Shown here: piece after piece, positions 29,715-32,010 of the stretch
How the letters are laid out: each line of letters starts with the position of its first letter
How positions within the stretch are numbered: position 1 is the stretch's first letter
From: Patescibacteria group bacterium
Lineage (GTDB): Bacteria; Patescibacteriota; Patescibacteriia; 2-12-FULL-60-25
Reading direction: 5' to 3'
Length of the DNA: 64,000 nt
NCBI GenBank assembly: GCA_029004215.1
Contig: JAQULH010000002.1
Span: 1-64,000, forward strand
Made by a program: the position numbers and the translations under genes
Notes under the pieces: model-generated
The model's input: the letters and a program-made list of their open reading frames with translations, nothing else
Told to the model about the DNA's origin: nothing
The model's database searches: none

Positions 29715-29785
29715 CCATTCAGGCGACCGACGCTCTCCGCTTCCGCTGGACAAAAATCTTGCGATCCTGGAGTGCTAAAACACTT

Positions 29786-31093
29786 ATGCCACACACATCA
29801 CGCAAACGCCGCACAATTGGGCACTCTTTGAATAAACTGCACTCAACGCCCAAAAACAAGAAACTGGTCAATAAAAAACCAGCCGGAGGTAAGAAAGCTT
29901 ACCAGCCAACATCTTCTTCCAAGGCCAAACAAGCTCAGAAATCCAAAAAACCTCAGGCTAAACAATTCCAACAGCCTAAGACGCCTTACGTCAAAGCCCC
30001 GCCACCAACACCCGAGGCTTTGGACCGTCTTTTCGAAAAAGCTCGCACCAGGAGCTTCATGACAGAAACTGAAATCCTTTATGCTTTTTCTGACATAGAA
30101 GATTATATTCCTGTTTACGAAGCATTTATCGATCGGTTGGATGCTGCTGGTATTGCTGTGGTCGAAATGAAGGAAGGCATACTGGGACGCAAAGATGACA
30201 GGCGGGTCATCATGACCCAGATGAACAGCGCCATCCCGGAACTGGGCGTCAAAGTTGATCCGTTTGATTTGACGGCTGACCATATCCAAATTTACTTGAG
30301 AGAAATCGGCAAGATCCCCCTGCTTAAAGCTGAAGAGGAAATCGCCTTGGCCAAACGCAAGGAAAAAGGGGACAAAGAGGCCGAGAAGAAACTGATCGAG
30401 GCTAACCTGCGCCTGGTCGTCTCCATTGCCAAAAAATTCATGGGCAAATCCTTGGCGCTTTTGGATTTAATCCAAGAAGGCAACATCGGCTTATTCCGCG
30501 CCGTCAAAAAGTTCGAGTACCGTAAAGGTTACAAATTCTCGACTTATGCCACTTGGTGGATTAGGCAAGCCATTACTCGCGCCCTGGCCGACCAGTCGCG
30601 TACCATTCGCATCCCGGTCCACATGGTGGAGACCATCAATAAGTTCCAGCAAATCGAACGCCAATTGATACAGGACTTGGGACGCGAACCATTGCCTGAA
30701 GAAATCGCCGCTGAAATGGGCGAGGATGTTGACAAGGTCCGCCATATCATCAAAATTTCACAAGATACTGTTTCACTCGAAACTTCAGTCGGTGAAGATG
30801 ATGAAGATTCAACTCTTGAGGACTTTATCGAAGACATCAAGAACGTCACGCCTGACCGGGCGGCTGGGCTCCAACTGCTTAAGGATTACGTCAAAGACAT
30901 TATCAAGGACCTTTCACCTCGCGAACAAAAAATTCTCGAGATGAGGTTCGGGTTGGTGGACGGAGTAAGCCACACTTTGGAAGAAGTCGGTAAAGAGTTT
31001 GACGTCACCCGCGAACGTATCCGCCAAATCGAATCAAAAGCTTTGGAAAAGATCCAGCAGCATCCGCTCATCAAGAGACTTGCTGATTACTAA
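29786..31093 (+). CDS. rpoD: Primary sigma factor RpoD (sigma70)
   Basis: 435 residues from ATG 29786. The first about 70 residues are a Lys/Pro/Gln-rich low-complexity tail, followed by a region 1.1-like segment (about 75-140, [20 protein letters not shown]). Region 1.2 is [11 protein letters not shown], region 2 contains [10 protein letters not shown] and [13 protein letters not shown] (-10 recognition), and region 4.2 [10 protein letters not shown] (-35 recognition). This fits the TTGACA/TATAAT promoters seen in the window. A terminator follows about 20 nt after the stop. Confidence 0.97.
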
Positions 31094-31110: not shown

Positions 31111-31136
31111 ACACCCGTCCATTGACGGGTGTTTTG
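31111..31136 (+). terminator. rpoD terminator
   Basis: ACACCCGTC (31111-31119), CATT loop, GACGGGTGT (31124-31132), then TTTT. The stem is a perfect 9 bp. Its right arm doubles as part of the -35 element of the next promoter. Confidence 0.85.
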
Positions 31137-31150
31137 GTCACGAGTAAAAT
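31122..31150 (+). promoter_or_regulatory. Sigma70 promoter of the long non-coding RNA
   Basis: TTGACG (31122-31127), 17-nt spacer, TAAAAT (31145-31150). Expected transcription start is about 31157, one base before the first strand of the terminal helix of the RNA. The -35 box overlaps the right arm of the rpoD terminator, so read-through and initiation may be linked. Confidence 0.8.
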
Positions 31151-31156
31151 ACGTTA

Positions 31157-31868
31157 AGCACCTTGAGATGTGTCGGACTATTTAGTGGGGAAACCCAACA
31201 TTCACAGGAGAGGATTCCTAATCGGGTTCGCAAGGACATGACAAGCGCGGTTCAACCGAGCAAGTCGCCGATAAGGGCCATTTCTGGGGATGGGAGTAAG
31301 ACTACGGTCAAACTCCTAGCAGCACTTCTGATCATTCAGAAGAGTCCGAGCTATGCAGCTCTCCAAGTAAGTGACGGCCACGAGGTTCGACGTTTGCGCA
31401 AACGCATGAAGCGGTGAAGGGAAGGCCCTTGGACGCTAGTGCAAGAGACGTAGACGTTGGGACAGGCATTTGCCGGAGTTCAATCAATGTGAGGTTGCGA
31501 CGAATAATCGGACCAAGCAGCGAGCGATCACTGGCAGAATACGACGAGTGAGGCAATGGTGCCACACACGTCAGTCTAAGGGCAGCGGAAGCTGTAGACC
31601 TTGAGAACCTGACCGCAACCTCCTTTCGGAGAACGTGGACAGGATTGCTCGAAGAGAGCGGTACATGGAAAGAGTCATCCGGCGAACCCAACTCGGGAAC
31701 GGACGGTTCTGGAAATGATGCGAGCGTAGGTCTCGCTAGCTGGAAATGAAAGTGACGCGTGTACTAAACCGACGCGTAGGCTACAGGCCCAGATCTGCTC
31801 AACAACCCACTACGAAAGGTGCAACCACTCCTCACAGCGCACGTGTCCTCCACGGCGCTAATTTTTTT
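31157..31868 (+). ncRNA. Long structured non-coding RNA, family not recognised
   Basis: A transcription unit of about 710 nt with promoter and terminator but no convincing protein. Long-range helices are perfect: GCACCTT 31158-31164 with AAGGTGC 31816-31822 (closes the molecule); GGGTTCGC 31224-31231 with GCGAACCC 31682-31689; AAGGGCC 31273-31279 with GGCCCTT 31424-31430; GAGGTTGCG 31491-31499 with CGCAACCTC 31614-31622. Local hairpins include a GAAA tetraloop at 31186-31197, 31325-31342 (7 bp), 31348-31361, 31391-31404, 31583-31594, 31720-31736 and 31755-31777. The four long helices nest without conflict. It lies just upstream of tRNA-Asn. Conserved motifs of RNase P RNA, tmRNA, SRP RNA and group I/II introns are not visible. 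Large ornate RNAs such as GOLLD or ROOL, also often near tRNA genes, are the closest class in general character; identity untested. Confidence 0.8.
31836..31868 (+). terminator. Terminator of the long non-coding RNA
   Basis: AGCGC, bulged A, CGTG, loop TCCTC, CACG, GCGCT (31836-31859), followed by AATTTTTTT. Confidence 0.88.
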
Positions 31869-31892: not shown

Positions 31893-31921
31893 TTGCCAAG
31901 CCAAAAAGGGTCATATATAAT
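31893..31921 (+). promoter_or_regulatory. Sigma70 promoter of tRNA-Asn
   Basis: TTGCCA (31893-31898), 17-nt spacer, TATAAT (31916-31921). The tRNA begins 15 nt downstream, and it is separate from the upstream RNA's promoter. Confidence 0.85.
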
Positions 31922-31935
31922 CCTTTCGCAATCTT

Positions 31936-32010
31936 TCCGAGGTAGCTCAGCGGTAGAGCAGAGGACTGTTAATCCTTTGGTCGTGGGTTCGATCCCCACC
32001 CTCGGAGCCA
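31936..32010 (+). tRNA. tRNA-Asn (anticodon GUU), CCA encoded
   Basis: Full cloverleaf: acceptor TCCGAGG with CCTCGGA (7 bp), D-stem GCTC/GAGC, anticodon loop CTGTTAA giving anticodon GTT, T-arm GTGGG-TTCGATC-CCCAC, discriminator G and templated CCA at 32008-32010. Its own promoter and terminator make it a single-gene unit. Confidence 0.97.

Follow-up and report, generated by a model that had tools for sequence, protein, structure and literature searches.

Large structured RNAs of bacteria

GOLLD RNAs, many of which exceed 800 nt, adopt an ornate multi-domain fold with a conserved 3′ part and a variable 5′ part and lie in the neighborhood of tRNA genes (PMC12286853). ROOL is likewise a large and ornate RNA that is often near tRNA genes and has no known protein partner (PMC12286853), and OLE is described as an RNA of Gram-positive extremophiles that is part of a ribonucleoprotein complex (PMC11332333). 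The window analyzed here, a stretch of 64,000 nucleotides from a Patescibacteria genome, contains a putative RNA gene, termed RNA A, that resembles GOLLD in its size class, its ornate fold, its conserved 3′ and variable 5′ parts and its tRNA neighbor. Unlike GOLLD, however, it gives no covariance-model match, lies in a chromosomal housekeeping locus rather than in a phage or prophage, has its own rRNA-like start sequence and appears to be restricted to one genus. With ROOL it has in common that it is ornate, large and near a tRNA gene, but it matches neither the covariance model nor any phage record, and with OLE that it is large, complex, free-standing and bacterial, but again the model finds no match.

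We propose that RNA A represents a new family of structured RNA, independently transcribed and ~700 nt in length, and from the sequence comparisons presented herein we place the probability of this reading at about 0.82. As far as our searches reached, the family is most likely confined to a single genus of Patescibacteria. To our knowledge, few bacterial non-coding RNAs of such size exist, and we know of no established function for GOLLD or ROOL.

The RNA gene and its neighbors

RNA A lies in the ~840-base gap between rpoD and tRNA-Asn, where the following features are found.

29759..31093, + strand: rpoD, the upstream neighbor (start codon position approximate)
31111..31132, + strand: terminator hairpin on the rpoD side (ACACCCGTC/GACGGGTGT)
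31122..31150, + strand: promoter of RNA A, TTGACG-N17-TAAAAT, 10 of 12 consensus positions, kept in genomes G002 and G003
31157..31868, + strand: large non-coding RNA A, ~712 nt including the terminator
31158..31164, + strand: 5′ arm of the closing helix P1, GCACCTT, with an equivalent of changed sequence in all relatives
31816..31822, + strand: 3′ arm of P1, AAGGTGC, identical in RNA B
31823..31831, + strand: conserved linker AACCACTCC between P1 and the terminator, AACYACTC in G002/G003
31836..31868, + strand: intrinsic terminator, AGCGC-A-CGTG-TCCTC-CACG-GCGCT + T7, kept in G002 and G003
31893..31921, + strand: separate promoter of tRNA-Asn, TTGCCA-N17-TATAAT, resembled by a promoter in G004, where the site is empty
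31936..32010, + strand: tRNA-Asn(GTT), the downstream neighbor

Both the promoter and the hairpin-plus-T-run terminator had been called in the sequence-only reading and were located as claimed; shuffled controls gave 0.4±0.6 promoters in the same region. The –35 box of the RNA A promoter falls within the loop and 3′ arm of the rpoD terminator hairpin, an overlap that the sequence-only reading had passed over and that is also present at loci L002 and L023. Since tRNA-Asn has a separate promoter, RNA A is not a tRNA leader. The open reading frames listed around RNA A are those of housekeeping genes (rpoD/dnaG/uvrB context), with no phage genes evident.

Non-coding status and search for known families

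We refer to the RNA of the window as A, to that of G002 as B, to the pairs of G003 and G001 as C, D and E, F, respectively, and to that of G006 as G. That no credible protein is encoded, as had been supposed, is confirmed by the lack of any Pfam match for the five ORFs of the RNA A stretch and with the pattern of indels between A and B, 13 of 14 of which are 1, 2, 4 or 16 nt in length, the other being 3 nt. When cmscan was run against all of Rfam 15 (4227 families), with E up to 10 for A and up to 5 for B to G, nothing in RNA A reached the gathering score and only chance-level matches to unrelated families appeared at E up to 10, while no family matched the relatives' RNAs. The GOLLD, ROOL, OLE, RNase P and intron models were all without a match, and for the suggestion that RNA A is a divergent member of GOLLD, ROOL or OLE we find nothing positive beyond size and the adjoining tRNA gene.

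RNA A is similar to RNase P RNA and tmRNA in being structured, several hundred nucleotides long and apparently of the stable-RNA type. Identity with either is rejected because no model matches (ARAGORN also finds no tmRNA in RNA A) and both genes are at other sites in the same genome, RNase P RNA (RF00010) at G000:C34:8110-8575 (E 6.7e-54) and tmRNA (RF00023) at G000:C38:8163-8557. Group I and group II introns are also large and structured, but RNA A matches neither model, is intergenic rather than within an exon or any other part of a gene, and has its own promoter and terminator, so an intron is likewise rejected. RNA A has what is expected of a free-standing structured non-coding RNA, namely a promoter and a terminator of its own, the absence of coding capacity, a covarying structure and purifying selection. 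The original proposal, of a large structured RNA that belongs to no known family and is transcribed independently in a reduced-genome lineage, is upheld by the lack of an Rfam match together with strong covariation and selection. Our search of the literature, largely open-access, on non-coding RNA in Uhrbacteria and the candidate phyla radiation found nothing describing such an RNA.

Conservation, folding and covariation

Blast recovered a single close relative, in G002, with 84% identity over the matched stretch. The ungapped identity of A and B is 87.1%, compared with 59.4% at rpoD fourfold sites of the same genomes, and it ranges from 0.57 to 1.00 per 40-nt window, with windows of 93–100% alternating with windows of 57%. 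The 93–100% segments include paired helices with compensation. A and C have in common a 3′ domain of ~230 nt with 69% identity. Three internal regions are distinguished.

31397..31436, + strand: least conserved internal stretch, 0.57 A/B identity, variable hairpins
31477..31676, + strand: conserved central core, 0.85–1.00 identity to G002 in 40-nt windows
31656..31800, + strand: 3′ domain, closed by 31656-31661/31795-31800, with six helices and 13 compensated pairs

As a single sequence (712 nt), RNA A folds with a minimum free energy of –263 versus –232±7.6 for shuffled sequences (z –4.1), and the opposite strand is also somewhat better than shuffled (z –2.5). The corresponding z values are –4.05 for C, –4.6 for E, –4.8 for F, –5.0 for G and –1.9 for D. 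For alignments, folding z is –7.2 for A and B (reverse strand –2.6) and –6.8 for the 3′ domain of A, B and C (reverse strand –4.2). Across the three species, 13 of the 43 base pairs of the 3′ domain are compensated, as against 5.7±1.8 in shuffles, none of 500 of which reach 13, while slid controls never exceed 4; standard pairing over the 43 pairs is 92%. The long-range helix 31656-31661/31795-31800 has five of its six pairs compensated; its strand 31656-31661 can also pair locally, in competition with the long-range partner. We regard the covariation of the 3′ domain as strong, short of formal proof at the low power afforded by three internally alignable sequences (A, B and C), and the compensatory changes indicate that the folded shape of the RNA is kept by selection.

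The sequence-only reading was therefore right that the RNA is structured, on the grounds of fold z and covariation, though not for the helices on which it had relied. Of the four long-range helices that it claimed, the 7-bp closing helix is kept and is identical in B, while the other three are not kept in G002, the closest relative: the 8-bp helix spanning 466 nt has lost its 5′ arm there, and the 7-bp (158 nt) and 9-bp (132 nt) helices are broken without compensation, so that we reject all three as chance pairings. Indeed, RNA A contains ten perfect helices of at least 7 bp, about the number that chance would give (~12, estimated as position pairs × 0.25^7), and thus the long-range perfect helices carried no evidence of structure. 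The closing helix P1 is GCACCTT/AAGGTGC in A and B, GCACTTG/CAAGTGC in D and GCACCTTG/CAAGGTGC in E, and in G it consists of CTTGAG/CTCAAG plus GGCAC/GTGCC; the individual matches are only moderately improbable, being equaled by 0.3–14% of shuffles, and the 5′ sequence GCACCTT is one with which transcripts of the genus commonly begin. Dimerization through a 14-nt palindrome of A (31391-31404) is unsupported, as the palindrome is not kept in B.

The rpoD/tRNA-Asn slot across the genus

RNAs of 289–788 nt lie between rpoD and tRNA-Asn in five of eight species of one genus, which the loci of named genomes place near Candidatus Uhrbacteria (Patescibacteria). The eight species are those in which the locus is assembled; G005, where a long ORF follows rpoD and tRNA-Asn is not nearby, is counted as having no slot RNA, and G007 is outside the count because none of its contigs has an rpoD match. 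The inserts of G003, G001 and G006 are non-coding and have a promoter, a 5′/3′ closing helix and a terminator. G003 contains tandem RNAs of 595 and 334 nt, G001 tandem RNAs of 508 and 289 nt, and G006 a single RNA of 788 nt, and the slot is empty in G004 (~70 bases) and G008 (~110 bases). In both tandem pairs (L023 and L024) the long RNA is first and the short one second, and the 3′ ends are more alike within than between genomes (C–D, E=2e-6; E–F, E=7e-7; C–E, C–F and D–E, 0.009–0.05).

Covariance models run without filters found nothing in common between the interiors of E, G, D and F and those of A to C. The interiors in G001 and G006 are unrelated despite a neutral divergence similar to that of G003, the rpoD fourfold identity to the window genome being 47% for G001, 46% for G006 and 49% for G003. 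What D to G have in common with A to C is synteny, the promoter type, a closing helix of changed sequence and a short 3′-end similarity; of these, synteny, the common design and the short matches at the 3′ ends are the basis for proposing that the two sets are homologous. The slot thus appears to retain an RNA design while swapping the interior. Alternatively, the RNAs may be distant homologs that have undergone extreme drift, with no replacement of the interior.

Range outside the genus

Covariance models R1 and R2 together with blast were applied to 41 genomes of the family and 286 of the class, and no further member was found; the weak matches that appeared were considered false or close to chance level. 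An R1 match in G010 (E 3e-5) was rejected as an alignment to a tRNA T-arm plus terminator, and one in G022 (E 0.02) because many pairs are broken. Searches of the 286 class genomes with the 3′ domain or with the interiors of C to G returned only the source genomes and short near-chance matches: two distant genomes gave matches of 22 and 41 bases, and G006 gave one of 27 bases at another site. BLASTN against 50,697 phage and 72,556 plasmid records gave no match, nor did an exact pattern search of viral contigs. In other genera, the rpoD–tRNA-Asn gaps that we inspected contain protein genes or short spacers.

Start sequence

The large RNAs start with a GCACYTT-type sequence that also forms the 5′ strand of P1 and resembles the start of the rRNA operons of the genus, CGCACYTT. 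The 16S rRNA operons begin from TTGAC...CGCACCTT, and in a pattern scan the motif TTGAC-N25-37-GCACYTT occurs 74 times, summed over the genus, versus 34 in the control, about a twofold excess. Among these matches are several promoters that drive tRNA genes or the 16S rRNA operon, along with promoters of mRNAs. The rRNA-like start suggests transcription of the stable-RNA class. We rejected GCACCTTG after a promoter as a signature of the RNA family: because this start is common to the rRNA operon, tRNAs and mRNAs, it is by itself no evidence of homology.

Proposed mode of action and alternatives

The sequence comparison shows that the 5′ and 3′ ends of the RNA pair, closing the molecule. We put forward a hypothetical mechanism with transcription from the rRNA-class start sequence at the level of a stable RNA. 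The RNA would function in trans, folded into a compact particle or scaffold that may consist of RNA alone or may include proteins encoded elsewhere. Its mode of action would be like that of the ornate RNAs GOLLD, ROOL and OLE without homology to them. Such action in trans is a tentative part of our reading, to which we give less than even odds. More speculative still is the idea of a fast-turnover ornate-RNA locus, in which the closing helix, linker, rRNA-like start and terminator are kept while the interior is replaced and doubled into long-plus-short pairs; the interior turnover would fit an arms race or a mobile cassette. If true, a fast-turnover slot would lie beyond all known families, as a novel class of RNA machine or of RNA subject to an arms race. 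The retention by selection of a new RNA family in a ~1.2 Mb genome of a reduced-genome lineage implies that it would have a useful job, and the locus, which occurs naturally with a single RNA, with a tandem pair or as an empty site, provides variants with which the roles of such RNAs can be tested.

Of the other explanations, that of a decayed protein gene or an unconstrained spacer folding by accident is extremely improbable. It could draw on ORFs of 84 and 119 codons and on the wholly different interiors in G001 and G006, but the conservation of the RNA far exceeds the neutral yardstick, the indels break the frame, Pfam finds nothing, and the conserved promoter and terminator and the compensatory changes already contradict it. 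We consider it very improbable that RNA A is a highly divergent GOLLD or ROOL RNA, that is, a phage-derived nanocage RNA stranded next to a tRNA gene. Such an origin would account for the size, the ornate closed fold, the tRNA neighbor and the conserved 3′ and variable 5′ parts; against it are the Rfam, phage, plasmid and viral-contig searches described above and the surroundings, which have a single tRNA neighbor and housekeeping genes in place of the phage or prophage and tRNA island that are typical of GOLLD and ROOL.

The RNA might instead be a processed precursor, an antisense RNA or a sponge, its function residing in short unpaired segments and the fold serving as a stabilizing scaffold. 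The fast interior turnover between species, the RNA's own promoter with its rRNA-like start and the long-plus-short tandem pairs would suit such a role, which we nevertheless consider rather unlikely, since the segments of 93–100% conservation contain compensated paired helices. It is less likely again that the RNA in the slot does not serve the host but is a selfish or mobile cassette, such as a ribozyme element devoid of an ORF. Presence and absence within one genus, unrelated interiors between common ends and the other genes that occupy the slot in other genera are all in keeping with a cassette, as is the group I intron that, as a second RNA, invades the adjoining tRNA in G002. However, neither the group I nor the group II intron models match the slot RNAs, no integrase or reverse transcriptase was noticed in the immediate flanks, a separate promoter and terminator accompany every RNA, and A and B are under purifying selection.

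Other features of the locus

The anticodon of tRNA-Asn in G002, next to RNA B, is interrupted by a group I intron of ~580 nt (RF00028, E 4.9e-17; L002 149-417, minus strand). The intron has an apparent HNH-type ORF, and the tRNA-Asn of the window is without an intron. In G006 and G035 the intact tRNA is closely preceded by partial copies of the tRNA-Asn 5′ end (TTCCGGGGTAGCT...; L025 3691-3704 and L044 3405-3446, approximate), as if the slot were used for insertions. At L002, L024 and L028, palindromic repeats of the type TTCGAAATTCGATATTCGAA separate tRNA-Asn from the RNA or from the empty site, and they also occur at L191. It should also be noted that GCACYTT after TTGAC promoters (e.g., L189, L191, L201, L209, L211 and window positions 31122-31164) is possibly a start-site element of the lineage.
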